From: a candidate division WOR-3 bacterium
Lineage (GTDB): Bacteria > Hydrothermota > Tepidihabitantia > Tepidihabitantales > Tepidihabitantaceae
Length of the DNA stretch: 64,000 nt
NCBI GenBank assembly: GCA_024653355.1
Contig: JANLFQ010000003.1
Location: 1 to 64,000, forward strand
Reading direction: 5' to 3'
Positions 23,878-38,851 of the stretch are shown here, piece by piece. The notes beneath the pieces were generated by a model, which was not told where the DNA came from, ran no database searches, and was given only the letters and a program-made list of their open reading frames with translations. Position 1 is the first letter of the stretch. Each line of letters opens with the position of its first letter. The translations under genes were made by a program, and so were the position numbers.

Positions 23878-24669
23878 ATGGCAAAGCGTTACGACTATAC
23901 CGGTAAAGATGTGCAGGAGGTTTACGACGGTCCGGGTGGTCTGCTCTGGGAGGCGGTAATGGGTGAGCAGATTCACTCAGGTGGACCTGATGCCACTGAC
24001 CGGCTGGCACAGGCGCTGGGTCTGAAGCCCGGGATGCATGTGCTTGATGTGTGCAGTGCGCTGGGCGCACCGGCAAGGCAGATCGCCCAGAAGTATGGGG
24101 TCAAAGTTACCGGTCTTGACTTCACAAAGACAATGCTGGAAAAGGCGCGGCAGCGGACCAAAGAGGCGGGTCTTGACCATCTGATTACCTTTGTTGAAGG
24201 CAATGCGCTTGATATGCCGTTCAAGGCGAACACCTTTGATGTGGTCTGGGGGCAGGAGGCGTGGTGCTATGTGACCGACAAGGAACTGCTGGCGCGGGAG
24301 TGCTATCGGGTGCTGAAGCCAGGCGGGAAGATTGGTTTTACCGACTGGGTGATTACTGGAAAGGTGGAGGAGGATTTGCTGGCAAAACTTTACGAGTCGA
24401 TGGCGTTTCCTTATATGGAGACCTTTGAAGGCTGGCAGGAGGTTCTGCGCCGTGCCGGGTTTAAAATCCTTGATGCCCAGGACCAGACTGAGGAGTTCGC
24501 CCGCTGCTTTGATGATTACAAGGTGATGGTGGAGGAGAAACTGAAGCCGACAATTCTTCAGAACTTCGGCAACGACCTTTACCAGTTTGCGGTGAATTTA
24601 GTTAATATGTGGCGGGATGCGGCGCATCGGCATCAGGTGGGCAGAGGCTTTTACATCGGGCAGAAGTGA
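23878..24669 (+). CDS. Class I SAM-dependent methyltransferase, possibly N-methyltransferase of glycine/sarcosine type
   Basis: The protein has 263 residues. Motif I is VLDVCSALGAPAR near residues 55-67 (the usual GxGxG is SALGAP here). The acidic motif II is GLDFTKTML near 79-87, followed by EGNALDMPFKANTFDVVWGQEA and the post-motif RVLKPGGKIGFTDWV. This pattern occurs in glycine/sarcosine/dimethylglycine and phosphoethanolamine N-methyltransferases, but the substrate cannot be fixed from sequence. It begins a probable operon ending with selD and is preceded by the folded leader. The RBS AAAGGAGG is strong. Cytoplasmic. Confidence 0.8.
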   Translation: MAKRYDYTGKDVQEVYDGPGGLLWEAVMGEQIHSGGPDATDRLAQALGLKPGMHVLDVCSALGAPARQIAQKYGVKVTGLDFTKTMLEKARQRTKEAGLDHLITFVEGNALDMPFKANTFDVVWGQEAWCYVTDKELLARECYRVLKPGGKIGFTDWVITGKVEEDLLAKLYESMAFPYMETFEGWQEVLRRAGFKILDAQDQTEEFARCFDDYKVMVEEKLKPTILQNFGNDLYQFAVNLVNMWRDAAHRHQVGRGFYIGQK

Positions 24670-24803
24670 GACGGCGTATCCTGTTCTGGGTGCTGATTGG
24701 GCTCGGTGCTGGGGCGCTGATTTTTGGCTCTTTAGTTGGCGCCTGGGCACGCATTGGCTACTTCAGCAGCCAGATATGCCTCTCCTGTATGGGCATGGTT
24801 TAG
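24666..24803 (+). CDS. 45-residue membrane microprotein with C-terminal CxxC
   Basis: A GTG start at 24666 overlaps the methyltransferase stop (GTGA), the classic sign of coupled translation. The product has MRRR at the N-terminus, one membrane helix (ILFWVLIGLGAGALIFGSLVG, about residues 5-25) and the tail SSQICLSCMGMV with Cys38 and Cys41. By the positive-inside rule the tail would face the periplasm, a place for a redox or metal-binding pair. The next two genes encode exported thioredoxin-like CxxC proteins. No family recognised. The length, coupling and bias of this short frame support a real gene. Confidence 0.6.
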   Translation: MRRRILFWVLIGLGAGALIFGSLVGAWARIGYFSSQICLSCMGMV

Positions 24804-24819
24804 GAAAAAGGAGGTGTTT

Positions 24820-26619
24820 ATGAGAGGTAAGTTGCTGATAGTTGCCGGGCTGTTTTTCGCGTTCGGCGTCGCACTGGCAACCCAGCGGGTGATGGTGATG
24901 GAAGATTTCACCGCCACCTGGTGCACCTATTGTCCGGGTGCGGCACGCGGTGCCGAGGAGTTGAAGTTCCGGGCGTTTGATTCGGTGGTGGTGATTGCCT
25001 ATCATTCGTCAAACAGCGACCCGTTTTACACTGCAGAGGCGGCAAGCCGGATGAGTTACTACGGCGTGACCGGCTATCCGACGATGCGCCTGGATGGCGG
25101 ACAAGCGGTGGTGGGCGGATTGCACTACGGCACGATGTATCCGACCTACCGGCAGTTCTTTGACACCCGCAAACTGGAGCCAAGTCCGCTTGATATTAAG
25201 CTGGCGGTCACCTATGACTCAGCAACGCGCAGCGGGGTGTTGACAATCGTGGTTCGCAACACCAGTTCGAGTGCGGTGAGCGGGCAGTTGCACACGGTTC
25301 TGACCGAGAGTCACATCTACTACCCGTGGCAGGGCATGGACAGTCTGCACGATGTAGAACGGCTGATGTTGCCCAATGCCAGCGGTGAGGCGATAACGGT
25401 CAACCCCGGGGATTCGGTGGTGCGGACGAGAAATTTCACCATCAATGCCGGCTGGGTGGCAAGGAACTGCGAGTTTGTCGTGTTCGTGCAGAACAACACC
25501 ACGAAGTGGATGTATCAGGGTGCGAGTATCGGGGTGATTGCCGAGCCGGAACTGGAGTTTGTCGGTTATCAACCGGTGCGGCCGCTCCCGGGGCAGAGTT
25601 TCAACCTGACGGTCGGGGTGCGCAACATCGGTAGTACGGCGCTGAGCGGCGCGAGCGCGGTATTGACAACCGACGACCCGTATCTTACGGTTGTTCAGGG
25701 AACGAGCAGTTTCGGGCAGATCAACCGGGGCGCAGATGGTTACTGCGCTACGCCGTTTCAACTGCAGGTGAGTTCTTCGTGCCCGGACCCGCATCGGGCG
25801 ACGCTTCGGCTGGTAGTTTCGAGTACCGATATGGGCGTGGATACAATGACATTTCCTTTGAACATAACAACCAGCCCGGGTTTTGCCGATGATATGGAAC
25901 ACGGCATCGGGGGCTGGACTCACAGCGGCACCAGTGACAACTGGCACCTTTCAACTTATCGTTCCTCATCACCGAGTTACTCCTGGTACTGCGGGGTGGA
26001 GTCAAACCACCAGTACACGAATGAGAACGACTCCCGTTTGATGACCCCGTTTTTCACTCTGGGCGACTCTGCCTGGGTGCGGTTCAAGCATTACTACGAC
26101 ACCGAGGCGGACTATGACTTCTGCATCCTGGAGATAAACAACGGTTCGCCGTTCTGGGTACCGCTCGGGATGTGGAGTGGCTCAAGTAACGGCTGGCAGC
26201 AGGAGGCGATAGATTTGAGCCCGTTCCGCAACCAGACAGTGCGGTTGAGGTTCCGGTTTATCAGCGACTACAATGTCACGGGCGAGGGCTGGTATGTTGA
26301 CGACTTTGAATGTGGCGCCCAGGTCGGAGTTGCCGAACCGCGGGTGAATCAGGTGCTGCCAATGGTTCTGGTAAGCAGTCCGGTGCGAATGCGGGCACAG
26401 GTGCGGTTTGTGCTGCCCGCCGGGGTTAAGGCAGAGGCGCAAGTTTACGACATCACCGGAAAGATGGTGCGGCAACTGGGCGACAATCTGAGTGGGACCG
26501 GTACGGTGGTGTGGAATCTGACCGACCAGAGGGGTAAAAAGGTGAGTTCGGGCGGTTACTTTATCCGGCTCTCTTACAGTAACAGTACGGTCAGTGTGCC
26601 GGTAGTGGTTGCGAGGTAA
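24820..26619 (+). CDS. Omp28/thioredoxin-like secreted protein with jelly-roll and T9SS domains
   Basis: The protein has 599 residues. ATG 24820 follows AAAGGAGG. Signal peptide at residues 1-20. A thioredoxin-like domain with WCTYCPGAARG (Cys35, Cys38), SVVVIAYHSSNSDPFY and GVTGYPTMRLDG (with the cis-Pro that thioredoxin folds need) runs to about residue 130, as in Omp28-related proteins. Ig-like parts follow (about 130-360). Residues about 370-510 look like a MAM/jelly-roll domain (DDMEHGIGGWTHSG...NWHLS, WYVDDFECG) found in secreted peptidases. The C-terminal sorting module uses YDITGKMVRQL, SGGYFIRLSY and lacks a clear PNP. Surface redox or adhesive role inferred. Confidence 0.8.
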   Translation: MRGKLLIVAGLFFAFGVALATQRVMVMEDFTATWCTYCPGAARGAEELKFRAFDSVVVIAYHSSNSDPFYTAEAASRMSYYGVTGYPTMRLDGGQAVVGGLHYGTMYPTYRQFFDTRKLEPSPLDIKLAVTYDSATRSGVLTIVVRNTSSSAVSGQLHTVLTESHIYYPWQGMDSLHDVERLMLPNASGEAITVNPGDSVVRTRNFTINAGWVARNCEFVVFVQNNTTKWMYQGASIGVIAEPELEFVGYQPVRPLPGQSFNLTVGVRNIGSTALSGASAVLTTDDPYLTVVQGTSSFGQINRGADGYCATPFQLQVSSSCPDPHRATLRLVVSSTDMGVDTMTFPLNITTSPGFADDMEHGIGGWTHSGTSDNWHLSTYRSSSPSYSWYCGVESNHQYTNENDSRLMTPFFTLGDSAWVRFKHYYDTEADYDFCILEINNGSPFWVPLGMWSGSSNGWQQEAIDLSPFRNQTVRLRFRFISDYNVTGEGWYVDDFECGAQVGVAEPRVNQVLPMVLVSSPVRMRAQVRFVLPAGVKAEAQVYDITGKMVRQLGDNLSGTGTVVWNLTDQRGKKVSSGGYFIRLSYSNSTVSVPVVVAR

Positions 26620-26622
26620 GAG

Positions 26623-27384
26623 GTGCGGTTAAACAGGGGCAGGTTGCTGTTTTTCTTCAGCAGCCTGCTCCTGATTTTCGGCTGTTCGGATGCGCCTTTG
26701 ATTCCCCTCGTGCCGACCGATCGGGTGGTGCTGGTGGAATTTTTTACCTGGCAGCGCTGCGTTTACTGCCCGTATGCGGCACGGGCGCTGGACAGTTTGC
26801 AGAAGGAGTTTGCCGACAGCGTGGTGGTGATTGCCTATCACCGCCGGGTTGCGGGTGACACCCTTTCACCGGCGTATGTTGAGGAGCGGCGCCAAATTTA
26901 TTACGAGTCCGGCGGTGAACCAGCAACAATTTTTGATGGCGGTCCGGTGGTGCGCACCCCGGGACCGGAGTACAACTACGAAACTTTTAAGAACTACATC
27001 CTCGGGGCAAAGGCGGTTTTACCGCAAGTGGAACTGGCGGTCGCGGTGCAGCGCGACTCTTCGCGGGCAACTGTTGTCGTCCGGGTTTTTGGCGTAGATT
27101 CCACACCCGCGGAAAGTTTACGGCTTTTTATTGTGATAACCGAGGATTCGGTGCGGGCGGCTTTGACCGGGGCAACCGATTCGGTTTTCAACGATGTGAT
27201 GCGGGCGATGCTGCCTGATGTCAATGGTTTGCCCTGCTGGTTGCGCCGGGGTGATAGTCTCCGGTTTGAACAGACGGTTCAATTTCCGGTTCACTGGAAT
27301 CCCGGGCAGTTGAATGTGGTTTGTTTTGTTCAGGAGCCTTCAAGCCGGCGGGTTCTGCAAGCCTGCCATAAGAAATTGAATTGA
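26623..27384 (+). CDS. Omp28/thioredoxin-like lipoprotein
   Basis: The protein has 253 residues with a GTG start right after the previous stop; GAGGT serves as RBS. Lipobox LIFGC puts the lipid on Cys21. The thioredoxin-like part is VVLVEFFTWQRCVYCPYAARAL (Cys46-Cys49 as CxxC), SVVVIAYHRRVAGDTLSP and GEPATIFDGG (cis-Pro). It is clearly paralogous to the N-terminal 240 residues of the preceding gene, including the second half (TVVVRVFG, LFIVITEDSV, DVMRAMLPD). It lacks the jelly-roll and sorting domain and would stay membrane-bound. Together the two may form a periplasm-to-surface thiol pair. Confidence 0.8.
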   Translation: MRLNRGRLLFFFSSLLLIFGCSDAPLIPLVPTDRVVLVEFFTWQRCVYCPYAARALDSLQKEFADSVVVIAYHRRVAGDTLSPAYVEERRQIYYESGGEPATIFDGGPVVRTPGPEYNYETFKNYILGAKAVLPQVELAVAVQRDSSRATVVVRVFGVDSTPAESLRLFIVITEDSVRAALTGATDSVFNDVMRAMLPDVNGLPCWLRRGDSLRFEQTVQFPVHWNPGQLNVVCFVQEPSSRRVLQACHKKLN

Positions 27385-27987: not shown

Positions 27988-29031
27988 TTGAGGAAAAGGG
28001 GTCTTTTGAGTTATGCCCGCGCCGCGGGCTGCGCGGGTAAGGCGTGTCAGACAGACCTGTTTGCTATGCTGGACGGGTTGCCCGTTTTTCACCATCCCGA
28101 TTTGCTGGTGAGCGGGGCAACCGCGGACGATGCCGGAATTTTTCGGCTGGATAAAAACCGGGCGCTGGTTCTGACGGTGGATGTTTTACCACCGGTTGCC
28201 GACGAACCTTATGTTTTCGGACAGATTGCGGCAGCGAACTCCCTCTCGGATGTGTATGCGATGGGTGGCAAACCGCTCGCGGCACTGGCGATTCTCGGAG
28301 TGCCGGTTGAAGAGATTGAGTTTACGACGGTGCGGACCGTGCTCGCCGGTGCCTGGGACAAGGTGAAGGAGGCGGGTGCGGTTGTTGCCGGCGGTCACAC
28401 GGTAAGAGATTTAGAGTTGAAGTTCGGGCTGGCGGTAACCGGAATTGTTCATCCCGAAAAGGTGGTGACCAACGCCGGTGCCAGACCCGGTGACCGGTTG
28501 CTGTTGACAAAACCGCTCGGGACCGGGGTGATTACAACCGCCCAGAAGCACCACCAGGCACCGCCGCAACTGGTGGCAAAGGTGAACAAATTGATGGCGC
28601 AGTTGAATCGCGCGGCAGCAGAAGCGATGACCGCGGTTGGGGTGAACGCGGCAACCGACATCACCGGTTTCGGGTTGCTGGGGCATTGCTGGGAGATGGC
28701 ACAGGCGAGCGGAGTTGACATAGTAATCAAGGCGGACGCAGTGCCTTTTCTCCCCGGGGTTCAGAGGCTGGCTGAGGAAGGGTGGTTTCCGGGCGGAACA
28801 TTGAAGAATTATGAGTTTATTAGAAGACGAGCGGAGTTTGCCCGGGGGATAAATAAGACGCTGCGGCTTTTACTGTGTGATGCCCAGACTTCAGGCGGTT
28901 TGTTGATTGCGGTGTCCGAAAAGAAGTTTGCCCGGCTGGAGCAAGAGTTAATAAGAGCCGGCGTTTCGGAGTTCAAGGAGGTTGGGGTAGTAACAGTTGG
29001 CACCGGCCGGGTGCGGGTGGTGGCGCGATAA
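27988..29031 (+). CDS. selD: Selenide, water dikinase (selenophosphate synthase)
   Basis: The protein has 347 residues, the normal length. It makes selenophosphate from selenide and ATP. The catalytic loop reads AAGCAGKACQ with Cys15 and Lys18 in the place of E. coli Cys17/Lys20, so this is a Cys rather than a Sec enzyme. Other motifs: DDAGIF, LTVDVLPPVADEPYVFGQIAAANSLSDVYAMGG (substrate and metal Asp residues), AGGHTV, ITGFGLLGH and DAQTSGGLLI. TTG 27988 follows AGGGGTG. No selA, selB, selenouridine synthase or evident selenoprotein lies in the window, so its use of selenium is unknown. It is 42 nt before the corrinoid operon but separated by a promoter. Confidence 0.9.
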   Translation: MRKRGLLSYARAAGCAGKACQTDLFAMLDGLPVFHHPDLLVSGATADDAGIFRLDKNRALVLTVDVLPPVADEPYVFGQIAAANSLSDVYAMGGKPLAALAILGVPVEEIEFTTVRTVLAGAWDKVKEAGAVVAGGHTVRDLELKFGLAVTGIVHPEKVVTNAGARPGDRLLLTKPLGTGVITTAQKHHQAPPQLVAKVNKLMAQLNRAAAEAMTAVGVNAATDITGFGLLGHCWEMAQASGVDIVIKADAVPFLPGVQRLAEEGWFPGGTLKNYEFIRRRAEFARGINKTLRLLLCDAQTSGGLLIAVSEKKFARLEQELIRAGVSEFKEVGVVTVGTGRVRVVAR

Positions 29032-29073: not shown

Positions 29074-29712
29074 ATGGAAAACTCCCGGGATTTATTTTCC
29101 TTGCTCGTTGATGCGGTTGTTGCCCTTGACCCGGTGCGGGTAGCGCAACTTTGTCAGGAAGCGTTGCGCCAGGGTTTGGCACCTGAGGAGGCGCTGGAGA
29201 AAGGTCTGGCACGGGGAATGCGGGTCGTGGGTGAGAAGTTTGCCGCCCGGGAGTTTTTTGTCCCGGAGGTGCTTCTGGCATCAAAGGCGATGTATGCCGG
29301 GTTTGATATCCTGAAGGAACAACTGCCCAGGGGAACGCGAAGCCGGGGCCGGGTGGCGCTGGGTGTGGTGCAGGGTGATATCCACGACATCGGCAAGAAC
29401 ATCGTTAAGGTGATGGTGCAGGCGGCAGGGTTTGAGGTTGTGGATTTAGGAAGGAATGTGCCGATTGAGCGGTTTGTCACCGCCGCTGAAGAAGGTGTCC
29501 AGATTGTCGGGATGTCTTCTTTGATGACAACGACGATGCCCAATATGGCAAAGGTGATTGAGGCACTGAAAAAGCAGGGGTTGCGGGAACGGGTGAAGGT
29601 GCTGGTCGGCGGTGCACCGGTGACGCGCCTTTTTGCCGAACGGATTGGTGCGGACGGTTATGCGCCTGATGCCCACAGTGCGGTGGTTGAGGTTGAACGA
29701 TTGTTGAAATAG
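29074..29712 (+). CDS. Methyltransferase-cognate corrinoid protein (MtmC/MtbC/MttC type)
   Basis: The protein has 212 residues, the family's length. An N-terminal four-helix cap (residues 1-88) is followed by the B12-binding Rossmann domain with GDIHDIGKN: Asp102, the axial ligand His104 and Gly107 of DxHxxG. Then comes VGMSSLMTTTMP (SxL motif) and VGGAPVT (GG motif). It carries the methyl group on cobalt between the two methyltransferases and is reactivated by the RACE protein of the same operon. Leaderless start (see promoter). Which methyl donor feeds it is unknown. Confidence 0.9.
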   Translation: MENSRDLFSLLVDAVVALDPVRVAQLCQEALRQGLAPEEALEKGLARGMRVVGEKFAAREFFVPEVLLASKAMYAGFDILKEQLPRGTRSRGRVALGVVQGDIHDIGKNIVKVMVQAAGFEVVDLGRNVPIERFVTAAEEGVQIVGMSSLMTTTMPNMAKVIEALKKQGLRERVKVLVGGAPVTRLFAERIGADGYAPDAHSAVVEVERLLK

Positions 29713-29715
29713 AAA

Positions 29716-30708
29716 GTGGCAAGGGCAAAAGAGCGATTGAGAACCGTTTTACAGCCTGACTTGTCCCGGGTCAAACCGCCGCTGGTGTTTCCGATTGTGG
29801 TGGCAAATCATGCCGCTTGGGTCGCGGGTGAACGGTTGAGCCGGGCTTTGACCGATAGCCGAATTTTGAGCGCCGTGCTCTATCAAGCATATCGGCTTTA
29901 CAATTATGACCTGATTATGGTGTTTGCTGATGTCCTTGTTGAGGCGGAGGCGATGGGGTGCGAGATTGAGATGGCGGAAGACGAGCCACCGATTCTGGTC
30001 CGGGCTGCCGGACAAAGGGCACAGGTTGTCAATCCGGTCCGGGCATGCCGGATGCCAATGATTCTTGATGCGACTGAAGGACTGGTGCGGATGGCGGGTA
30101 AAGATGTTTATGTCCTGACATCGCTCAAGGGTCCATTTTCCCTTGCCAGTTTTCTTGCTGGACCAGAGGAGTTTTTTGAGATTTTACTATCGGCACCAGA
30201 GCGGGCAGCGCAATTTCTGCGCCTGGCGACCGAGAATCAGAAAATCTTTGCCCGGGAGATTGTGAAGCGGGGTGGGGTGCCATTTATCGGTGACCCGATG
30301 GCTTCTGGTAGTGTTATAAGTCCGGCACTGTTTGAGCGGTTTGCCCTGCCCTATTTGAAGGAACTGGTGGCGGCGATTCACCAGCTGGGCTCCTGGACCG
30401 GGTTGCATATCTGCGGCGACACGACCAAGATTTTGCGGCTGATGTGCGCTACCGGTGCCGAGATTATAAGTGTTGACGAGATGGATATCGGTTTTGTCCG
30501 GCAGGAGGTGGGCGCGGACCGGGTGATTATGGGTAATGTGTCAACCGGGTTGCTGGAGAGCGGCAGACCGGAACAGATTTATCAGGCGGCGCAGGACTGT
30601 TTGAAAAAGGGGTTGCCGAAGATGATTCTTGCCAGCGCCTGCGATGTACCGACAGCAACACCGGTGGCGAATGTGCAGGCGCTGGTTTCGGCGGCACAGG
30701 GGTGGTGA
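29716..30708 (+). CDS. UroD-family corrinoid methyltransferase (MtaA/MtbA/CmuA type), first copy
   Basis: The protein has 330 residues with a GTG start 3 nt after the corrinoid gene. It has the uroporphyrinogen-decarboxylase fold of methylcobamide methyltransferases, with zinc ligands HICGD (His231, Cys233) and SACDVP (Cys309). Other conserved parts: GDPMASGSVISP, TGAEIISVDEM, VIMGNVST. True UroD residues for porphyrin binding at the N-terminus are absent. The zinc activates a thiol or similar methyl acceptor. It shares its overall plan with the second copy at 34626, and the two presumably act on different sides of the same corrinoid protein. Confidence 0.85.
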   Translation: MARAKERLRTVLQPDLSRVKPPLVFPIVVANHAAWVAGERLSRALTDSRILSAVLYQAYRLYNYDLIMVFADVLVEAEAMGCEIEMAEDEPPILVRAAGQRAQVVNPVRACRMPMILDATEGLVRMAGKDVYVLTSLKGPFSLASFLAGPEEFFEILLSAPERAAQFLRLATENQKIFAREIVKRGGVPFIGDPMASGSVISPALFERFALPYLKELVAAIHQLGSWTGLHICGDTTKILRLMCATGAEIISVDEMDIGFVRQEVGADRVIMGNVSTGLLESGRPEQIYQAAQDCLKKGLPKMILASACDVPTATPVANVQALVSAAQGW

Positions 30709-32111
30709 TGATTGTTCGCTGTAAACCAGCGGGGTGTAAGTCGCTGCTGGAACTGTTATGGGCTCAGGATATTGATTTACCGGGCGATTGCGGCGGCAGG
30801 GGTTCGTGCGGCAAGTGCCGGGTGCGGCTGTTGTCCGATGGTTCTTATGTGCTTGCCTGTCAGTTTGTGCCCAAGCGTTCGGTGGTGGTTGAGATTGAGG
30901 GCAATTTCAATAAAGCGGTGCGCGGTAAACGTAGTGGTGCAGGACACCCTGAAATCAGGCATAAGGATACGGTGGTGGTTGCGGACATCGGCACGACAAC
31001 TTTACGGCTGGCATTGGTTGACCGGGTAAAAGGGCGGCGGATTAAAACCGTAACGCAGTTAAATCCGCAGATAAGATTCGGTGCTGATGTCCTTACCCGG
31101 ATAAGCCAGGAAAAGAAGGTGCGCCGGGCAGGACTGGGCAATTGTCTCCAAGAGTTTATCAGCCAGAACAGGGTTTGGCGGTCAAATCCGGTCACGGTGG
31201 TGGGCAATACGGTGATGATGCACTTTGTTTTCGGGAAGAGTCCGAAGGGTTTAGGTCAATTTCCCTATCGCCCGAACCTGCCTTTGCGCCGGGTGATTCA
31301 AAGAAAGCAGGACGGCCTGAAGTTGTGTACCCTGCCGCTGCTCGGTTCGTTCATCGGCAGTGACTGCACCGCTGCGATTCTCGCGGCAGGGATAAACCAG
31401 ACCGAAAGGTTGACACTTTTAGTTGATGCCGGGACCAACGGTGAGGTGGTATTAGGTAACCGGCACAAAATTGTTGCCTGTTCAACTGCGGCCGGACCGG
31501 CTTTTGAGGGGGCAACTTTGAGTTGTGGTGCTCTTGCCGTACCAGGGGCGATTACCGGTTGCCGGTTTTACCGGGGAAGATGGGTCGTGAAGACGGTGGG
31601 GAACAAAGTTCCAACTGGAATCTGCGGTTCTGGGGTGCTGGATGCTATTGCCGAGGCGGTGCGTACTGGATTGATTGAACCCGGGGGCAGGCTGAAGCAG
31701 GGGGAACGGCTTCAGATTTACGGTGCGGAGCCGGCAGGGGTTTACCTGACGCAGGCGGACATCAGGGAGGTGCAACTCGCCAAGGCGGCGATTGCCAGCG
31801 GCATAAAATTACTCCATAAAGAGTGGTCCGGAAGACCGATTGAACGGGTGGTGATAACCGGTCGGTTTGGGGGCAGGTTGAACAGTCAGGCGGCAATGGC
31901 GATTGGACTTTTGCCGGTCGTGCCCGCAGCGGTGGTAAAACAAAAGCCCGACTTGGCGCTTGCGGGCGCGATAAAGGCGGTGCTTGCGCCCGATGTTCTG
32001 AAACAGGCGGCGGATTTGAGTGCCCGTGTTACCGAAATTCGGCTCGCCGAACACCCGGATTTTGAAGCGATGTTTGTTGAGTCACTGGCACTAACAGAAT
32101 GGCGATTTTAG
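30708..32111 (+). CDS. RACE-type corrinoid activation protein (2Fe-2S plus ASKHA/DUF4445)
   Basis: The protein has 467 residues. ATG 30708 overlaps the previous stop (TGATG). A plant-type ferredoxin domain has Cys28, Cys34, Cys37 (CGGRGSCGKC) and Cys51. A linker precedes the ASKHA domain, which starts VVVADIGTTTLRLALVD and has VVGNTVMMHFVF, LLVDAGTNGEVVLG, AAGPAFEGATLSCGA, GICGSGVLDAIAE and VVITGRFGGRLN. Such proteins use ATP to return Co(II)-corrinoid to Co(I) after accidental oxidation. It is the expected partner of the corrinoid protein. The N-terminal ferredoxin is somewhat shorter than in many homologues. Confidence 0.88.
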   Translation: MIVRCKPAGCKSLLELLWAQDIDLPGDCGGRGSCGKCRVRLLSDGSYVLACQFVPKRSVVVEIEGNFNKAVRGKRSGAGHPEIRHKDTVVVADIGTTTLRLALVDRVKGRRIKTVTQLNPQIRFGADVLTRISQEKKVRRAGLGNCLQEFISQNRVWRSNPVTVVGNTVMMHFVFGKSPKGLGQFPYRPNLPLRRVIQRKQDGLKLCTLPLLGSFIGSDCTAAILAAGINQTERLTLLVDAGTNGEVVLGNRHKIVACSTAAGPAFEGATLSCGALAVPGAITGCRFYRGRWVVKTVGNKVPTGICGSGVLDAIAEAVRTGLIEPGGRLKQGERLQIYGAEPAGVYLTQADIREVQLAKAAIASGIKLLHKEWSGRPIERVVITGRFGGRLNSQAAMAIGLLPVVPAAVVKQKPDLALAGAIKAVLAPDVLKQAADLSARVTEIRLAEHPDFEAMFVESLALTEWRF

Positions 32112-33220
32112 ATAGCGCCCGGCTTGAGAGTTTACGCTTGGAACGGTTTGAGGAATTGACGGGTTTGAAGGCGCAGGGTAAGAAGGTGGTGGGTTACTTC
32201 TGCCTTTATGCGCCGGTGGAAATTGTTCAGGCAGCAGGAGCGATTCCGGTGCGGCTCGCACGCGCCGATTATGGAAGCGCACTTGCGGGTGAACGGTTTC
32301 TGCGCGCCGATGCCTGTCCGTTCTGTAAGGCGAGTCTGGGTAAATTTGTCCAGGACCCGTTGTATCAACTGGTTGACGGGGTGGTAATTGTCAACACCTG
32401 TGATATGATGCGCCGGTTACCCGAGGCGCTAACAACTAACTTTTCGGTGCCGGTTTTTTTGCTTTATCTGCCGCGCACGAGTGAGTTGTTTCCCAATCGG
32501 TTGCAGGGGTTCCAAGCCGGATTGAGTGACCTTAAGGCGTGGTTGGGCGGTTTGACCGGTCAGGAGTGGCAAGAGGAACGGTTGCTGGAAGCGATTGACG
32601 AGGCAAACCAGTTGCGGCGCAAACTTCAGGAATTGGACCAAACCCGGGCAGAAATGCCGCCCAAAATTTCGGGGGGCGAACTGTTTGATATCGTGGCACT
32701 GGCAACGCTTTTACCACCAAAAAGGATGTTAAATCTACTCAATGATTTGTTAGCAGTGCTCCGGAAGCCGGCGGAAGCGATGAACAAAAACCGCGCGCGG
32801 CTACTTCTGACCGGCAGCATCTTATCCGAAGAGGACCGCACCCTGATTGAAATTGTTGAAGAAAAAGCGGATATTGTTGCGGATACGGTTTGCACCGGCA
32901 GCAGATGGTTTAACGAGGAGATTACGGTTGCGGAGGAGCCGTTTGCCGGTCTTGCCCGATTTTACTTTAGCCGAACACCGTGCGCCTGCCGCCGGCCCAA
33001 TACCGCTCTTTTTGAGTACATCAAGCAGCAGGTGGCGGCGCGAAAGGTTCAGGGAATTGTCAGTAAGAGTTTGCTTTACTGCGATGCCTACCGGTTTGAG
33101 GTTAAACAACTGCGGCAGGAGGTGGGGCTTCCGGTGTTAGAGGTTGATGGCGACTATTCGCAGGTGAACCGCCAGCAGTTGCGTACCCGAGTTGAGGCGT
33201 TTCTCGAGATGTTGCGATGA
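32099..33220 (+). CDS. 2-hydroxyacyl-CoA dehydratase/benzoyl-CoA reductase-like subunit (HgdB family), first
   Basis: The protein has 373 residues and overlaps the RACE gene by 13 bp. The family pattern is VGYFCLYAPVEIVQAAGAIP, RADACPFCKASLG (Cys73, Cys76), VNTCDMMRR (Cys101), TGSILSEED, VCTGSRWF and SKSLLYCDAYRFEVKQL (Cys near 327). The Cys residues before Pro-Phe, after Asn-Thr and in LLYCD are the cluster ligands of HgdB, BcrC and double-cubane cluster proteins. These enzymes take very low-potential electrons from the ATP-driven activator. No acyl-CoA enzyme is encoded nearby, so the substrate may not be a CoA ester. Confidence 0.85.
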   Translation: MAILDSARLESLRLERFEELTGLKAQGKKVVGYFCLYAPVEIVQAAGAIPVRLARADYGSALAGERFLRADACPFCKASLGKFVQDPLYQLVDGVVIVNTCDMMRRLPEALTTNFSVPVFLLYLPRTSELFPNRLQGFQAGLSDLKAWLGGLTGQEWQEERLLEAIDEANQLRRKLQELDQTRAEMPPKISGGELFDIVALATLLPPKRMLNLLNDLLAVLRKPAEAMNKNRARLLLTGSILSEEDRTLIEIVEEKADIVADTVCTGSRWFNEEITVAEEPFAGLARFYFSRTPCACRRPNTALFEYIKQQVAARKVQGIVSKSLLYCDAYRFEVKQLRQEVGLPVLEVDGDYSQVNRQQLRTRVEAFLEMLR

Positions 33221-34629
33221 GTTGGTTTGATTATCAGGACCCAACACCAGCCCGGATTACATTTGACGAGTGGGACGATTTGTTTCAACAAATACCGGAC
33301 GAGTTGATTGACCAATTTCACTACTTTCCGCCCAATCAGGAGGCGTGGTCAAAATATCTGTTTCCGCCCCAGGTGTTCGCCATCTACGGGGCAAGGCATC
33401 TGCGCCGATTGAAGTTTGACAATTCGCTGGCGGCGCTGCGGCTCTGGGGTTTTGTCCAGAATGAAATTGAACGGTTGTTTCGCGCCCGGCAGGTGGGGAA
33501 GAAGGTGGTGGCGGTGATGGGTGACCTGGGTCCGCTGGCGGTGATTGTGAATTCGGTGGCGGCAAGGGCTGGTTCGAGCAAGGATGGTGGGGGATGCGTC
33601 GCCTTTTATCCTGACTGCTGGTGGTGGACACCTTTTGCGATGGAGAGCAAGGTGTTACTGGACAAAGCGGCAGAACTTGGTATCGGTGATGCCACCTGTT
33701 TTTCCCGGGCGGCACTGGGCGCTTTTGCCAAGCACAGTTATTTTCCCGACCCGGATTTGGTGATTGCCGCAACCGGTGCATCGTGCGACGACTATTCCGG
33801 GGTGGAAAGTCTCGTAGCAAAGATGGTGCCCGAGGTCGTCTGGGTGGAAACACCGCTGCGGCGCGTTGAACCTGAGGCAAGGGAACGGGTTGAGCGGATG
33901 GTAGTTGAGGAGTATCAACGGGTGCTCAAAAAACTGGAGGAGTTGACCGGAGTCAAGGTGACCGAAGCGATGTTGCAACAGGGAATACGCCGGGCAAATC
34001 ACCTGCGGCGCCTGACTCAGCGATTGAAGGAACTCGCTTACGGTTATGGCGTGTTTCCAGCACTGGAAACGATGGTCGTGGAGTTTGGTTGTCTGCACGG
34101 CTATTCCGACATTGTGGAGTGGACCGCAATTGTGGAACATCTGGTCCAGACCGGGGAGGCACGGCTTGCGGCGGGGAAAACGGTGCTGGCATTGGACAGT
34201 TTGCGGATTGGCTGGGTAACACCGCCCGCGGACCCGTTACTTTTGTGTTATGTTGAAGACCGGGGGGCACGAATTGTAGCGAGCGAATATGTGATTAATC
34301 AGGCGTTGAGTTTGATTGACGAGTCGGTGCCGCCGCTTTTGGGGATTGCCCGTTCCCTGCTCACCGGTTCGCTGATTGGCACGTCAAGAGAACGGGCGGA
34401 GATGTTTGTCACTGCCGCGCAAGGGCGTCGAGCCGAAGGGGTGATTGTTTCGGGAATTTTAGGCGGTTCGCACTGCGCAATGGAGTCTCGGTTGATTGGT
34501 GATTACATTAAACAGAAACTGGACATCCCGATTCTGGAGTTTGATGTCGCACCACCCAACAAGGCGATTGACCGCCAGACGCAGACAAGGATTGATGCGT
34601 TTCTGGAACTGGTGCGGAGCCGGCGATGA
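33217..34629 (+). CDS. 2-hydroxyacyl-CoA dehydratase-like subunit (HgdA/B family), second
   Basis: The protein has 470 residues, starting in an ATGA overlap. It has the same family plan but is longer and more diverged: an N-terminal 100-residue part (WDDLFQQIPDELIDQFHYFPPNQEAWSK), then VVAVMGDLGPLAVIVNSVAAR, CVAFYPDCWWWTPF, GASCDDYSG, FGCLHGYSD, SLRIGWVTPPADP and a C-terminal GSHCAMESRLIGDYIKQKLDIP then ILEFD. The Cys residues in YPDC, GASC and SHC may bind a cluster. HgdA/B- or BcrB/C-type pairs normally form the catalytic dimer, so this is probably the partner of the gene at 32099. The Trp-rich active-site segment is unusual. Confidence 0.8.
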   Translation: MSWFDYQDPTPARITFDEWDDLFQQIPDELIDQFHYFPPNQEAWSKYLFPPQVFAIYGARHLRRLKFDNSLAALRLWGFVQNEIERLFRARQVGKKVVAVMGDLGPLAVIVNSVAARAGSSKDGGGCVAFYPDCWWWTPFAMESKVLLDKAAELGIGDATCFSRAALGAFAKHSYFPDPDLVIAATGASCDDYSGVESLVAKMVPEVVWVETPLRRVEPEARERVERMVVEEYQRVLKKLEELTGVKVTEAMLQQGIRRANHLRRLTQRLKELAYGYGVFPALETMVVEFGCLHGYSDIVEWTAIVEHLVQTGEARLAAGKTVLALDSLRIGWVTPPADPLLLCYVEDRGARIVASEYVINQALSLIDESVPPLLGIARSLLTGSLIGTSRERAEMFVTAAQGRRAEGVIVSGILGGSHCAMESRLIGDYIKQKLDIPILEFDVAPPNKAIDRQTQTRIDAFLELVRSRR

Positions 34630-35687
34630 AGGAGTTGCTCAATCCCCGGGAGCGGTTTTCGCTTCTGGTTATTGACGAACCACAGGACCGGGTGCCAATT
34701 TTTCCGTTGTTGACCGCCCATGCCGCAAAATTTTCCGGGGTGAGTTTACGCGACTACTACACCGATGGGGTGGTGATGGCAAAGTGCCAGTTAAGAGCAA
34801 GGGAGTTTTACAACACCGACTTTATCTCGATTTTTTCTGAGGTTGGTTTGATTGCCGAGGCACTAGGTTCAGAGTTTTTGTATCCGGAGGATGACCTGCC
34901 GGTGCTGGCACGACCGCGCTGGCAGAAAATCGAGGAGGCGGCGCGCGGTCTAAAAGAAAATCTGACCCTTAAGGGTCGGGTGGCGGTTTATCTTGATGCG
35001 ATAAATTATGCCTGGGAGGCGATTGCTGATGTTGTGCCAGTCCTTGCTTATGTACCGGCACCTTTTACCACCGCGCAGCAACTGGTTGAACCTGAGGAGT
35101 TTCTCCTTGCCCTGCTGGAAAAGCCGGAACTGGTAAAATCGGTCCTTGACGAAGTGACACAGGTGGTAAAAAATTTTTCCCGGCTCGTGATTCGAGCCGG
35201 GGCGTTGCCCATTTTAGTTGACCCGCTGGCTTCGGGTAGCGTACTCAGCCCCAGGGAGTATCGGGAGTTTGCCCTGCCCGCGGAAAAGGCGGTAATAGAT
35301 TTCTGGCACCGCTATGACCTCGATGTGGTTTTACACATCTGTGGCGATACGAGCGAAATCGCACCGTTGATGCCTGAGACCGGTGCCGACCTGATAAGCG
35401 TTGATAAAGTGGACCTTAGTCAGGTTGTTGCGGCAGTGGGAGAAAAGGTGCGGGTCATCGGCAATTTTGATACGACCGAGTTGTGGCTGGGCACCGCAAA
35501 GGAGATTGGCGATAAGGTCAGCGGGATGGTGGCGCAGGCAAAGAGTTGTCCCCGGGGCTATGTGGCGGCGACCGGATGTGAGGTGCCGATTGCCACACCG
35601 GAGGAAAATTTGCAGGCTTTTGTCAGCGCGGCTAAGGAGGCAGGAAGGTATCAATTTCCGCCTGCCCGGATAAGTGAAAGGAGATAG
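34626..35687 (+). CDS. UroD-family corrinoid methyltransferase (MtaA/MtbA type), second copy
   Basis: The protein has 353 residues, starting in an ATGA overlap with the HgdA/B-like gene. Zinc ligands: HICGD (His237, Cys239) and TGCEVP (Cys318). Shared phrases with the first copy: DPLASGSVLSP, TGADLISVDKVDL, IGNFDTTELW. The two copies are clearly diverged, not a recent duplication. One may demethylate the substrate and the other methylate the acceptor. Its place between the dehydratase-like subunits and their activator suggests the dehydratase chemistry and methyl transfer belong to one pathway. Confidence 0.85.
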   Translation: MKELLNPRERFSLLVIDEPQDRVPIFPLLTAHAAKFSGVSLRDYYTDGVVMAKCQLRAREFYNTDFISIFSEVGLIAEALGSEFLYPEDDLPVLARPRWQKIEEAARGLKENLTLKGRVAVYLDAINYAWEAIADVVPVLAYVPAPFTTAQQLVEPEEFLLALLEKPELVKSVLDEVTQVVKNFSRLVIRAGALPILVDPLASGSVLSPREYREFALPAEKAVIDFWHRYDLDVVLHICGDTSEIAPLMPETGADLISVDKVDLSQVVAAVGEKVRVIGNFDTTELWLGTAKEIGDKVSGMVAQAKSCPRGYVAATGCEVPIATPEENLQAFVSAAKEAGRYQFPPARISERR

Positions 35688-35693
35688 CACAAG

Positions 35694-36473
35694 ATGTTGA
35701 GCGTTGGCATTGATGTCGGTTCGGTTAACACCAAGGTGTTGATTTACGATTCAGCACGGGATGAGGTGGTTGCCCGATGTGTGGCACCAACCGGAATGAA
35801 GCCCAGGGAGCAGGCACAGCGGGTGTTTGAGTTTTGTGTGGCGAATGCCGGTCTGGAGCGCTCGGCACTGGGACACATCGTTGCTACCGGTTATGCCCGG
35901 CAGGCGGTTGATTTTGCCCGGCAGACGGTGACCGAGATTACCGCGACGGGCCGGGGGATAAGAAAGTGGCATCCTTCCAGTCGAACGGTCATTGACATCG
36001 GCGGCCAGGATTCAAAGGTGATAGCGCTTGATGAACAGGGACGGGTGCAGGACTTTGTAATGAACGACCGTTGTGCCGCCGGCACGGGTAGTTTTCTTGA
36101 GTTTATTGCCCGGGCGCTGAATGTGCCGATTGAGCAGTTCGGGGAGTTGAGTGCGCGTTCCCAGAAACCGGTGCTGCTCTCCAGCCTCTGTGTGGTGATG
36201 GCGGAGTCGGAAATCCTTTCGCTTGTTGCTGCGGATGTGCCCCGCGAGGATATCATCGCCGGTTTACATCTGGCGCTGGCAACGAGGGTTGTCAATATGG
36301 CGGCACGGGTTAATGTTTTGCCCGAGGTGATTTTTACCGGCGGTACCGCGCTCAATTCAGGGCTGCGCCAGGCGCTGGAACGAGTTCTGGGGTTAAAGGT
36401 CCAAAGCTCTCAGGAGCCGCTTTTTGCGGCGGCAATGGGCGCGGCACTGTTAGGTGCCGACACTACTTTTTAA
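35694..36473 (+). CDS. BadF/BadG/BcrA/BcrD-type ATPase, activator of the dehydratase-like enzyme (HgdC family)
   Basis: The protein has 259 residues, the HgdC length. ASKHA nucleotide-binding motifs: GIDVGSVNTKVLIYD, VIDIGGQDSKVI and FTGGTALNSG. The bridging 4Fe-4S cluster of the homodimer is held by Cys127 (NDRCAAGTGSF) and Cys166 (SSLCVVMAESEI). ATP hydrolysis opens the helix-cluster-helix unit and fires one electron into the catalytic component. RBS AAAGGAGA. It is the last gene of the operon and its last 11 bp overlap the convergent Ntn-hydrolase gene. Confidence 0.9.
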   Translation: MLSVGIDVGSVNTKVLIYDSARDEVVARCVAPTGMKPREQAQRVFEFCVANAGLERSALGHIVATGYARQAVDFARQTVTEITATGRGIRKWHPSSRTVIDIGGQDSKVIALDEQGRVQDFVMNDRCAAGTGSFLEFIARALNVPIEQFGELSARSQKPVLLSSLCVVMAESEILSLVAADVPREDIIAGLHLALATRVVNMAARVNVLPEVIFTGGTALNSGLRQALERVLGLKVQSSQEPLFAAAMGAALLGADTTF

Positions 36474-37809
36474 GGACAAGCAGGCGTTGAACAGCGCCAT
36501 CGTTTGGGATGAAGAAAATCCCGGTAGAGCGAGCGGGAGAAGCGATTCTACCGGTGATGTCATAAACCGGGAAGGAGTTTGGCGGGAGCGAATTTAAATG
36601 GAGCGTGGTCAAGGGCGGGTGATGATTGGGATACTGTTTTTCTAATTCAACCGTCTGCCAGAAGTTCTGGTAGGTGGCCAGTATCAACCGACAGATTGAG
36701 TCGGTCAGGGTTTGCGCCGCGGTGCGGGAGGGACCAATGGCACCCCACTCGGTTTCGCATCGGGCGACGAGGGCAAAAATTGTTGACTCGGTGGGTGCGC
36801 TGAACTGTAACCAGCGCGCCAGGCGCTGGGTGTTGATTGCCTTGGGGTATTCGGGAAGGGGGTAAAGGTAACTAACCAGCCGCTGGGCTTCATCGCAGAT
36901 TGGTGCGGTTATTGTGCCGTCAAGGTAAGAAGGGACTGTTTCGGCCGCGACCCAGAGTGGGATAGGAAGGGTGGCAACCGGTTGACCAAGGAGCACCCAC
37001 ATCATACCGGTTCGAAGATGGGCACCGGGTGCAGGCCCAACCATTATCTCAACGGAGCGGGTCTGGGAACGGCAGATGGTGGTATCGGTGGGAAGGTAAC
37101 CGAATGGTAAAGAACCGAACTTACCAAGAAAAGGCAAGGGGTAAGGCTCAAATCCGACCTGGCCCAAGTCGCGAGCAAGGGTGCAGATGATAAAAGGAAG
37201 ATTGAGGCGGTTTTCATAAAAGGCGGCACGACAGAGTTGTTCTGCCCGCTCGTAGCGGTTTTTCCCCAATAACCGATTCGGTCCCCCGGACATTGAGTAG
37301 TTTGCCCGGATGAGAAATCCTAAGGAGTCGTTCTTGGTATCGTAGCGGGTATAAGATGTGTAACCGGCTTCGAAGATGGCGGTGGTACCGGTAGAGTCAA
37401 AAACCCCAAAGTTTGCCGGTGTTTCCCGGCCAACGATGTTTAAGGAGTCAAGGAGATGGGCAAAGTCTTCCACCGTGGCACAGGAGCCAAGGGCAAGACG
37501 CATTATGTTGCCGTCGTCGGCAGCAGTGATGTTGCCGGTGAGGTTGTAGGAGTTGGAGTTCATAATTGCAAATCCAACCTCATTGATGCCCGCCCAGACA
37601 TCGAGCGTTTCCCCCGCATAAACATTGGCGACAAACCGGAACCGGGGACCGCGGAAGAATTTCATCTCCTGGTCGGGATTGTTGACATCGCGATTTTTCC
37701 AGAGAACGGCACGACCTTCACTCAGCGCTGTGGGACCGAAGGCACCGATGGTACAGGCGAAGGTAAAACTAAGGTGTAGAAGGAGTAGCGGGACGGGTTT
37801 AAATCTCAT
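36463..37809 (-). CDS. Exported Ntn-hydrolase-like amidohydrolase (choloylglycine/C45/C69-like)
   Basis: The protein has 448 residues; ATG 37809 is preferred over the longer frame because it begins the signal peptide MRFKPVPLLLLHLSFTFA. Removal after Ala18 would expose Cys19 as the new N-terminus: CTIGAFGP, followed by GRAVLWKNRD and AGINEVGFAIMNSNSYN. This is the order seen in Ntn hydrolases such as acyl-transferases and penicillin acylases (catalytic N-terminal Cys, Arg/Asp, Asn). The C-terminus (FPVYDITGRIASPARSTGIF, FIPNDGAVQRLLVLKK) keeps the last strands of a T9SS domain. A lipobox reading of TFAC is possible but poor. Substrate unknown. It overlaps the ispG stop by 11 bp. Confidence 0.65.
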   Translation of the reverse strand: MRFKPVPLLLLHLSFTFACTIGAFGPTALSEGRAVLWKNRDVNNPDQEMKFFRGPRFRFVANVYAGETLDVWAGINEVGFAIMNSNSYNLTGNITAADDGNIMRLALGSCATVEDFAHLLDSLNIVGRETPANFGVFDSTGTTAIFEAGYTSYTRYDTKNDSLGFLIRANYSMSGGPNRLLGKNRYERAEQLCRAAFYENRLNLPFIICTLARDLGQVGFEPYPLPFLGKFGSLPFGYLPTDTTICRSQTRSVEIMVGPAPGAHLRTGMMWVLLGQPVATLPIPLWVAAETVPSYLDGTITAPICDEAQRLVSYLYPLPEYPKAINTQRLARWLQFSAPTESTIFALVARCETEWGAIGPSRTAAQTLTDSICRLILATYQNFWQTVELEKQYPNHHPPLTTLHLNSLPPNSFPVYDITGRIASPARSTGIFFIPNDGAVQRLLVLKK

Positions 37810-38851
37810 TGTTGAGGTGCCGCTTGATTTCTTTGCCGAGCGCCGCCACAAGCCGGGACTCAGGATAGGTGCCGATTACTTTACCCTTGACAAACAAAAC
37901 ACCTTTTCCTTTGCCGCCGGCGATGCCAAAATCGGCTTCACGGGCTTCACCCGGTCCATTGACAACACACCCCATTACCGCGACCTTCAACGGCGCAGTG
38001 ATGCCCTGGAGGCTTTTCTGAACCTGACGGGTCAGGCGGACGATGTCAATCCTGGTGCGGCCACAACCGGGACAGGAGTAGACGACCGGTTTAATCTGAC
38101 GCCGATTGAGCGCAGCGAGGAGTTCGTAGGCGGCAACGACTTCAAGGACCGGGTCACCGGTAAGGGAAATGCGGATCGTGTCACCGATACCCTGGCGCAG
38201 GAGCGGTGCAAGCGCTGCGGCGGAGCGAATGCTGCCTTCAAGGGGCGGACCGGCTTCAGTCAAACCGATATGCAGTGGATAGGGAAAACGGTGGGCGAGT
38301 TCTTCATTGACGGCAATCAGGTCTTCAGCGACGGTGGTTTTTGCTGATAAAACCAGGGCTTTGAAGTTCAGTCTTTCAAACGGTTCCAGGGCCCGTGCCA
38401 TCGCCTCAATCAGCGCTTTGACTTCGGGATGACGGTAGCGCGCCCGGACCTCTTTGGGCAACGAGCCGGCATTGACCCCGATGCGGATTGCCACGCCCCG
38501 GTCCTGGGCAGCACGGATAATTTCTTCGATGCGCCGGATAGAGCCAATATTGCCGGGGTTGATACGGATTTTGTCGAAGCCGGCTTTGATTGCCGCAAGT
38601 GCCAACCGGTAGTCAAAGTGGATGTCAGCAATCAAGGGTAGGTCAACACGAGCCCGGATTTCGGGTAAGGCGGCAGCCGCTGCCGCATCAGGGACGGCGA
38701 GGCGCACCAGTTCGCAGCCGGCGGCAGTTAAACGGCGAATTGAACGCACGGTTGCAGTAACATCGTCGGTTCGAGTTTTGGTCATTGACTGGACACGCAC
38801 CGGCGCGCCGCCGCCAATCTGGATGTTACGCACCAGGACCGGCAGCGACAA
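37799..38851 (-). CDS. ispG: 4-hydroxy-3-methylbut-2-en-1-yl diphosphate synthase
   Basis: The protein has about 350 residues. I place the start at TTG 38851, 4 nt after the murA stop, giving SLPVLVRNIQIGGGAPVRVQ; an in-frame ATG at 38920 would add a murA-overlapping, basic, unconserved 23 residues. TIM-barrel motifs: VQSMTKTRTDD, LVRLAVPD, LIADIHFDYRLAL, RINPGNIG, IRIGVNAGSLP, GLTEAG, IRISLTGDP. The 4Fe-4S ligands are SCPGCGRTR and CVVNGPGE. It makes HMBPP, the penultimate MEP-pathway step. It sits in a likely operon after murA. Confidence 0.9.
   Translation of the reverse strand: MSLPVLVRNIQIGGGAPVRVQSMTKTRTDDVTATVRSIRRLTAAGCELVRLAVPDAAAAAALPEIRARVDLPLIADIHFDYRLALAAIKAGFDKIRINPGNIGSIRRIEEIIRAAQDRGVAIRIGVNAGSLPKEVRARYRHPEVKALIEAMARALEPFERLNFKALVLSAKTTVAEDLIAVNEELAHRFPYPLHIGLTEAGPPLEGSIRSAAALAPLLRQGIGDTIRISLTGDPVLEVVAAYELLAALNRRQIKPVVYSCPGCGRTRIDIVRLTRQVQKSLQGITAPLKVAVMGCVVNGPGEAREADFGIAGGKGKGVLFVKGKVIGTYPESRLVAALGKEIKRHLNNEI

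Follow-up and report, generated by a model that had tools for sequence, protein, structure and literature searches.

What might a cell do with a corrinoid methyl-transfer system that is encoded in one operon with a reductase of the 2-hydroxyacyl-CoA dehydratase (HAD) and benzoyl-CoA reductase (BCR) type? The question is raised by the window, which is the whole stretch of 64,000 nucleotides analysed here. Seven open reading frames at 29074-36473, all on the plus strand and separated by gaps of 3 and 6 nt or overlapping by 4 to 13 nt, form this operon. These genes and two upstream neighbours are as follows.

SAM_MT, 23878..24669, plus strand: class I SAM-dependent methyltransferase (Methyltransf_11)
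SelD, 27988..29031, plus strand: selenide, water dikinase, Cys form (TIGR00476, 357 bits), second SelD paralogue
Cor, 29074..29712, plus strand: corrinoid protein (B12-binding and B12-binding_2 in Pfam), DIHDIG at residue 102
MT1, 29716..30708, plus strand: UroD-family methyltransferase (URO-D, 206 bits), HxC...C zinc site
RACE, 30702..32111, plus strand: RACE/RACo-type corrinoid activator (RACo_C_ter, Raco_middle, Fer2), N-terminal 2Fe-2S domain
HgdA, 32099..33220, plus strand: BCR-I/HAD-family subunit (HGD-D, 276 bits), predicted [8Fe-9S] double-cubane carrier
HgdB, 33217..34629, plus strand: BCR-I/HAD-family subunit (HGD-D, 118 bits), predicted [4Fe-4S] catalytic subunit
MT2, 34626..35687, plus strand: UroD-family methyltransferase (URO-D, 227 bits), HxC...C zinc site
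Act, 35694..36473, plus strand: HgdC/DCCP-R-type ATPase activator (BcrAD_BadFG, 202 bits), Cys127 and Cys166

The preliminary description of this DNA had claimed the seven-gene order on one strand with tight spacing, the gene identities and the intact key residues. All seven reading frames were found at that span, Pfam returned B12-binding, URO-D, RACo, HGD-D twice, URO-D and BcrAD_BadFG, and the residues are in place, including the zinc sites of MT1 (H231/C233/C309, HIC at 231) and MT2 (H237/C239/C318, HIC at 237). Acyl-CoA genes, also said to be lacking, are absent from the operon by the open reading frame list and Pfam. That description overlooked the strongest context of the operon, namely SAM_MT and the selenium genes. 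Two of these lie upstream in the window: selD, which ends 42 bp before the start of Cor, and the SAM_MT gene, at a distance of 4.4 kb.

We surveyed the gene neighbourhoods in 147 genomes of the phylum of the window (candidate division WOR-3/Stahlbacteria, poorly known anaerobes) and found the genes conserved in the same order in other genomes, as a cassette carried by 38 of the 147. More than 30 genomes, drawn from at least five families, share this order, as do several further phylum-level groups, which puts the operon far beyond chance. Outside the phylum it is kept in a few MAGs whose labels read Calditrichota, LCP-89/Tariuqbacter or unclassified. The earlier reading of the operon as a single functional unit was to fall if HgdA and HgdB usually lay elsewhere; that objection fails because the pair lies within the cassette in all mapped WOR-3 loci, and elsewhere with only two exceptions. 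At loci L087 and L089 no HgdA is found within 10 kb of HgdB, and across the mapped loci the cassette has no constant substrate gene; both points count against the explanation that we prefer.

The cassette was found to be linked to selenium. SelA was detected in 36/38 cassette genomes of the phylum versus 25/109 cassette-free ones, and SelD in 35/38 versus 27/109. Beyond the phylum, 12/12 cassette genomes had SelA; within it, SelA went undetected in two cassette genomes, G102 and G120, both with SelD. In 22 of the 38 genomes selA or selD lies within 12 kb of HgdB, where about 4% per genome would be expected, and in one family selA and selB directly follow the cassette. The host genome of the window encodes SelA, SelB, two SelD and tRNA-Sec. 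In a phylogenetic tree the SelD of the window falls in a cassette-linked clade, SelD-2 (support 99/98), apart from the other, SelB-linked copy that this genome encodes. The genomes do not represent independent samples, and the association may partly come from shared anaerobic ancestry. Of the genes checked in and around the cassette, SelD alone has a selenocysteine codon in relatives; in-frame TGA codons in some HgdB matches were considered as selenocysteine and rejected, as they are normal C-terminal stops. A flanking ABC transporter at locus L044 is weakly related to SaoA, SaoP and SaoX, scoring below their cut-offs (260/360, 150/295 and 40/300, score/cut-off), and a flanking FTR-like protein is a weak relative of FtrB_double_U. 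The window itself has no Sao-like flanking transporter.

Because selenium-handling genes adjoin it, the cassette probably helps the cell to obtain selenium (or sulfur) from methylated compounds, by release or by salvage. With a confidence that is evenly balanced, we propose a corrinoid system for methylated selenium (or sulfur) compounds that has its own ATP-driven low-potential reductase. The methyltransferases are consistent with this, as His-Cys-Cys zinc sites mark S/Se-methyltransferases (PMC10418091). The methoxy-aromatics and methylamines named in the preliminary description are thus less likely substrates: the zinc sites point to sulfur or selenium instead. The nearest solved chain to both MT1 and MT2 is MtaA (4ay7), and neither reaches the cut-off of 235 of the MtaA/CmuA model TIGR01463 (190 and 165); Cor scored 208 bits against a cut-off of 215 for TIGR02370. 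MT2 is present in every cassette with enough flank, save one that adjoins an assembly gap, while MT1 is absent in 4 relatives. MT1 and RACE are both gone in four genomes, which keep SAM_MT, Cor, HgdA, HgdB and MT2, so a two-methyltransferase relay is not universal.

The losses of RACE bear on what the reductase is for. RACE is missing genome-wide in 11 of the 38 cassette genomes, single-contig ones included, while HgdA/HgdB and SAM_MT are never missing. DCCP-R-type ATPases and RACE alike drive electrons to low potential. HgdA, HgdB and Act could therefore be mainly a corrinoid re-activator which, with SAM_MT, rescues Co(II) by reductive methylation in the style of the MetH activation domain and makes RACE dispensable; the four genomes that lack both MT1 and RACE also favour this. 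We consider it rather unlikely, as both systems occur together in 27 genomes, HgdB has a catalytic-type three-Cys [4Fe-4S] site by pattern rather than that of a plain relay, and SAM_MT differs from the MetH domain in being a class I Rossmann enzyme. Nine RACE-less genomes moreover encode a stand-alone MetH-type domain, a possible rescuer. As a replacement for RACE, the stand-alone activation domain proved a confounded candidate: in G088 its neighbour is a PF02574 protein, so it is probably part of a split methionine synthase.

Equally improbable, in our judgement, is that the cassette serves a methyl-sulfur pathway, in methionine or methylthio salvage or thioether catabolism, which shares ancestry with selenium systems and has selenium genes nearby only by history. 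The zinc sites take sulfur too, and a sulfur branch of mlp clusters has been proposed (PMC10418091). MetE/MetH domains (PF01717, PF02574, PF02965) were not detected in the genome of the window, and a step from methyl-Cor to homocysteine would fill that gap. However, sulfur-salvage genes do not recur in the mapped neighbourhoods, whereas selA, selB and selD do. A reading purely as a methionine synthase was rejected, since MetH-type proteins occur in many cassette genomes of families beyond the close kin of the window and the cassette-free relative G107 likewise has no methionine synthases.

SAM_MT behaves as an obligate partner, found in 38/38 cassette genomes (those of the 147 with full-length HgdB) versus 0/109 others in the phylum. 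In most relatives its gene immediately precedes Cor, and in distant lineages an EamA-type transporter gene stands between the two. A methyltransferase that is never absent is an odd fit for a demethylation pathway, which counts against our preferred explanation, and any job given to it within the cassette is putative. Among solved structures it comes closest to phosphoethanolamine and sarcosine/dimethylglycine-type N-methyltransferases. Together with the perfect co-occurrence and the transporter, this could suggest an anabolic role, in which SAM_MT would make a methylated intermediate (osmolyte-, phospholipid- or metalloid-type) for modification by the corrinoid and reductase steps. We regard such a role as quite improbable: biosynthetic genes do not recur beside the cassette, similarity among class I methyltransferases does not define a substrate, and the selenium linkage would be left unexplained.

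Judged by its sequence, the reductase is a heterodimer of the BCR/HAD family. The six cysteines of HgdA (C35/73/101/265/295/328), each kept in 28-31 of 31 relatives, align with those common to DCCP and BzdN, the DCCP ligands being assigned by sequence alignment and the BzdNO paper (PMC11971306). The best NCBIfam model for HgdA, double_cubane (NF040772), gave 235 bits, below its cut-off of 350; HgdB scored 65 bits and lacks the full six-Cys set. In HgdB, C134/161/190/420 are invariant in 31 relatives, and the spacing of C161/C190/C420 is near that of BzdO C95/C128/C380. HgdB also has a distinctive, conserved N-terminal extension. Its AF2 model (pLDDT 86.9) matched solely the DCCP/MbdO/HadB/BzdO family in the PDB. 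We therefore predict a double-cubane cluster in HgdA and a [4Fe-4S] cluster in HgdB. Act exceeded the CoA_E_activ cut-off (249 versus 125 bits). That the pair is an ordinary 2-hydroxyacyl-CoA dehydratase or benzoyl-CoA reductase, by chance in a methyltransferase operon, is very improbable: it shares the superfamily and activator type, but against every HAD and BCR model the scores are far under the cut-off (HadC 98.9/700, BzdN 90.5/453.8, BcrC 87/421, BzdQ 160/380), two of the six HgdA cysteines are absent from HadC, and synteny with methyl-transfer genes is strict, with no acyl-CoA genes alongside.

The preliminary description knew of no pathway with exactly this set of genes. We found no literature joining a corrinoid system with double-cubane or HAD proteins, but related clusters are known, the closest being the type 1 mlp gene clusters (Kountz & Balskus 2023, PMC10418091) and SdmABC of Methanococcus. 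A type 1 mlp cluster requires at least one Mlp2-clade and at least one Mlp3-clade UroD methyltransferase (PMC10418091); in the other features that we compared, the cassette resembles it by its His-Cys-Cys UroD methyltransferases (MT1 and MT2), single corrinoid protein and RACE (clustered with Cor in the window, lost in 11/38 relatives). Both also have no tetrahydrofolate methyltransferase, frequent selABD, DCCP and Sao neighbours, and hosts with selenocysteine machinery, as in most mlp members and the genome of the window. In contrast, mlp clusters are reported to be without conserved synteny (PMC10418091) and have a separate homodimeric DCCP, whereas the cassette has a fixed gene order, a heterodimeric reductase inside the operon, an obligate SAM methyltransferase, and hosts in WOR-3 and other uncultured lineages. 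An Mlp2 of C. ljungdahlii is reported to methylate selenide, and Methanococcus voltae is described as needing the Sdm system to use dimethyl selenide (PMC10418091, PMC11097638). SdmABC, which demethylates dimethyl selenide in M. voltae (Niess & Klein 2004, as cited in PMC11097638), likewise ties a corrinoid protein and two methyltransferases to selenium supply; it is without a reductase pair or SAM methyltransferase and belongs to a methanogen with coenzyme M.

Of solved proteins, DCCP/DCCP-R (6eno, 7yyl) is nearest to HgdA, with all six putative cluster cysteines aligned and Act a DCCP-R-type ATPase. DCCP is a homodimer, however, while the partner of HgdA is the non-identical HgdB, in which three of the six are absent. 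BzdNO/BzdPQ and MbdONPQ share the class I BCR pattern of a double-cubane-ligand subunit, a three-Cys [4Fe-4S] subunit and an ATPase activator; HgdA and HgdB match the ligands at the level of pattern only (PMC11971306), and differ in their low scores, the HgdB N-terminal region, the lack of CoA-ester genes and the methyl-transfer setting. MtaA/MtbA/MtsA have the same zinc motif, but MT1 and MT2 fall below the NCBIfam cut-offs and have a bacterial host.

In the mechanism that we infer, including its substrate, its direction of methyl flow and the task of its reductase, the cobalt of Cor would bear the methyl group. As thiol/selenol-type zinc methyltransferases, MT1 and MT2 would shuttle this group between Cor and a selenium or sulfur compound and hand it to a thiol acceptor, and RACE, where present, would reduce Co(II) to Co(I). 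Act would spend ATP to drive electrons into HgdA, whose double-cubane cluster would store them until they move on to HgdB and its single [4Fe-4S] cluster. HgdB could then reduce a small non-CoA-ester substrate, most likely an organo-selenium or oxidised selenium compound, to selenide, which the adjacent SelD and then SelA/SelB would carry into selenoproteins. More tentatively, and with some doubt, we suggest an undescribed route of selenium acquisition, in which the ATP-driven double-cubane/[4Fe-4S] heterodimer reductively releases selenium from an organic or methylated compound of that element, Cor takes the methyl group and the obligate SAM_MT participates.

The fixed eight-gene cassette links a BCR/HAD-type reductase with putative Se/S methyl transfer by a corrinoid protein, with a SAM methyltransferase and with a SelD of its own, and offers a testable setting of selenium supply, methyl selenides and ATP-dependent reduction. 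To our knowledge, double-cubane proteins have no known physiological role, and we know of little exploration of the non-CoA branches of the BCR/HAD family. Reductive selenium release, if true, would give such a branch a catabolic role and double-cubane proteins a physiological setting. Most mlp-type clusters on record come from Firmicutes; the cassette would widen their range to uncultured lineages of sediments and the subsurface, which may join in selenium and sulfur cycling.

The seven open reading frames that the preliminary description had read as a single operon were recovered at the same positions and on the same strand. Adjacent frames either overlap by 4 to 13 nt or lie 3 or 6 nt apart. 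Pfam and NCBIfam agreed with the gene identities proposed there, namely a corrinoid protein (Cor), a UroD methyltransferase (MT1), a RACo-type activator (RACE), two HGD-D subunits (HgdA and HgdB), a second UroD methyltransferase (MT2), and a CoA_E_activ/BadF-type ATPase (Act), and all of the key residues were found intact on re-check. The operon and its surroundings comprise:

23878-24669: SAM_MT, a class I SAM methyltransferase (Pfam)
24736-27384: interval between SAM_MT and SelD, with two neighbouring Omp28-like secreted proteins (thioredoxin-like, bearing CxYC motifs) plus a small partner
ending 42 bp 5' of the operon: selD (TIGR00476, 357 bits)
29074-36473, + strand: the cassette Cor-MT1-RACE-HgdA-HgdB-MT2-Act
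36463-37851, - strand: C45/AAT-like acyltransferase gene, convergent with the operon end and overlapping Act by 11 nt

Homologues of the Omp28-like proteins lie close to the cassette in several related genomes, and the C45/AAT-like gene keeps its place in several relatives within the window's family.

HgdB was used as the query against 147 genomes from the window's phylum, and 38 of them gave strong matches (E below 1e-90), all from the window's class. One further genome (G115) contained only an HgdB fragment, and the remaining matches were weak and to other HGD-D proteins. The gene order of the cassette was conserved throughout the 37 stretches fetched around HgdB, apart from some gene losses, and SAM_MT was usually located immediately 5' of Cor. 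A scan of GTDB contigs with an HgdB alignment recovered this block in MAGs of unclassified bacteria and in others bearing the label Calditrichota or LCP-89/Tariuqbacter, as well as in one labelled Planctomycetia. The last contig (PMZT01000246.1, locus L070) has a WOR-3-like neighbourhood and cassette (HgdB 63% identity), followed downstream by the WOR-3-type neighbours AAT-like protein and IspG, and is probably misbinned. Cassettes of non-WOR-3 lineages feature a single EamA-type transporter half (~140 aa) inserted between SAM_MT and Cor (L090, L092, L094, L095, and L079). At two loci, L087 (Calditrichota) and L089 (Zixibacteriota), HgdB occurs with no HgdA, Cor or methyltransferase within 10 kb; both HgdB homologues are close to a Lon-like gene.

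Within the phylum, SAM_MT (E at most 1e-60) was present in 38/38 HgdB genomes compared with 0/109 others (Fisher p 4e-36, the genomes not being phylogenetically independent), even where it and the operon occupy separate contigs. RACE was absent genome-wide from 11 of the 38 cassette genomes, and in four of these MT1 was also gone from the block, leaving Cor followed by HgdA 15-42 bp away. MT2 was missing from only one locus, in G106, where HgdB reaches an assembly gap. SAM_MT, Cor, HgdA, HgdB, and MT2 thus form the near-invariant set, to which Act belongs in most cases, whereas RACE and MT1 fall outside it.

A stand-alone MetH-activation-type domain was found in 9/11 RACE-less genomes (G110, G076, G085, and G087-G092) compared with 2/27 RACE-bearing cassette genomes. 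It is probably part of a split methionine synthase, since in G088 it adjoins a PF02574 protein. No MetE, MetH or homocysteine S-methyltransferase domains (PF01717, PF02574, PF02965) were found in the whole window genome, so that the organism is either auxotrophic for methionine or has a methionine synthase that goes unrecognised.

Several lines of genomic evidence tie the cassette to selenium metabolism. SelA was detected in 36/38 cassette genomes of the phylum compared with 25/109 others, and SelD in 35/38 compared with 27/109; the two cassette genomes in which SelA was not detected (G102 and G120) have SelD. In 22 of the 38, selA or selD lies within 12 kb of HgdB, where about 4% per genome would be expected, and in one family selA and selB directly follow the cassette with selD 5' of it. 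Outside the phylum, all 12 cassette- or HgdB-bearing genomes have SelA, eight of them (G147-G151 and G153-G155; loci L103-L121) in two copies that come from two SelA clades, and one copy adjoins SAM_MT in G147 and G149. The window genome itself encodes tRNA-Sec, SelA, SelB, and two SelD proteins. In a SelD tree, SelB-linked SelD grouped separately from another clade of 11 rows (support 99/98). This other clade contains the window SelD together with further cassette-linked copies, and also one copy that neighbours SaoX/SaoP-like genes in a cassette-free genome. Two flanking proteins are weak, below-cut-off relatives of known families: an ABC transporter (family f10 and L079) of SaoA/SaoP/SaoX, and a small FTR-like protein of FtrB_double_U.

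The canonical homodimeric double-cubane cluster protein (DCCP; score over the NF040772 cut-off) was enriched, occurring in 15/38 cassette genomes compared with 7/109 others. In several genomes it adjoins or lies near SAM_MT (loci L042, L049, L052, and L064; genomes G085, G109, G117, and G118) with its own activator where checked; in G109 and G117 this contig differs from that of the cassette.

Among solved chains, MtaA is nearest to MT1 and MT2, and both carry the H-x-C...C zinc motif. PMC10418091 describes the His-Cys-Cys ligand set as a mark of S- or Se-methyltransferases in the UroD superfamily, and the type 1 mlp gene clusters of Kountz and Balskus as combining two or three such enzymes with a corrinoid protein and RACE, often adjoining selABD, DCCP, and Sao genes. 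As reported there, one Mlp2 was shown to methylate selenide, and the Sdm system is required for dimethyl selenide use in Methanococcus voltae (also PMC11097638). The text of PMC10418091 reports no conserved synteny for mlp clusters, and mentions neither a HAD/BCR-type pair, a SAM-dependent methyltransferase nor WOR-3.

The clusters and substrate of HgdA and HgdB are predicted from sequence and genomic context. HgdA is nearest among solved structures to double-cubane cluster proteins (5e-42) and BzdN, with whose cysteines its cysteines 35, 73, 101, 265, 295, and 328 align, whereas HadC lacks two of the six. Of 31 relatives, 28-31 retain each of these cysteines. Two or three are missing in single genomes (L040, L047, L048, and L064), and the distal sub-cluster may therefore be dispensable; at L040 and L064 the missing pair is that absent from HadC. 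HgdB C161, C190, and C420 are spaced much like the BzdO cluster ligands C95, C128, and C380 (PMC11971306). HgdB has an additional invariant C134 within an FYP(D/E)C motif, and its N-terminal region is also conserved.

We propose that a methyl-Se (or methyl-S) compound would react with Co(I)-Cor to give methyl-Cor and selenide or thiol, the methyl group then passing from Cor to a thiol acceptor. Act would drive electrons with ATP through the HgdA double cubane to the HgdB [4Fe-4S] site, which would reduce a small non-CoA substrate. Gene context suggests that this is a selenium species, and the neighbouring SelD would take up selenide. SAM_MT, whose role is the weakest point of the scheme, might serve in substrate preparation or in a MetH-like rescue by cobalt methylation. 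The leading alternative is that HgdAB and Act re-activate the corrinoid, which would account for RACE being losable while HgdAB is not. The cassette is real and conserved, with both the selenium-centred mechanism and the substrate proposed from genomic evidence, and it represents a previously undescribed variant of an already known kind of cluster.
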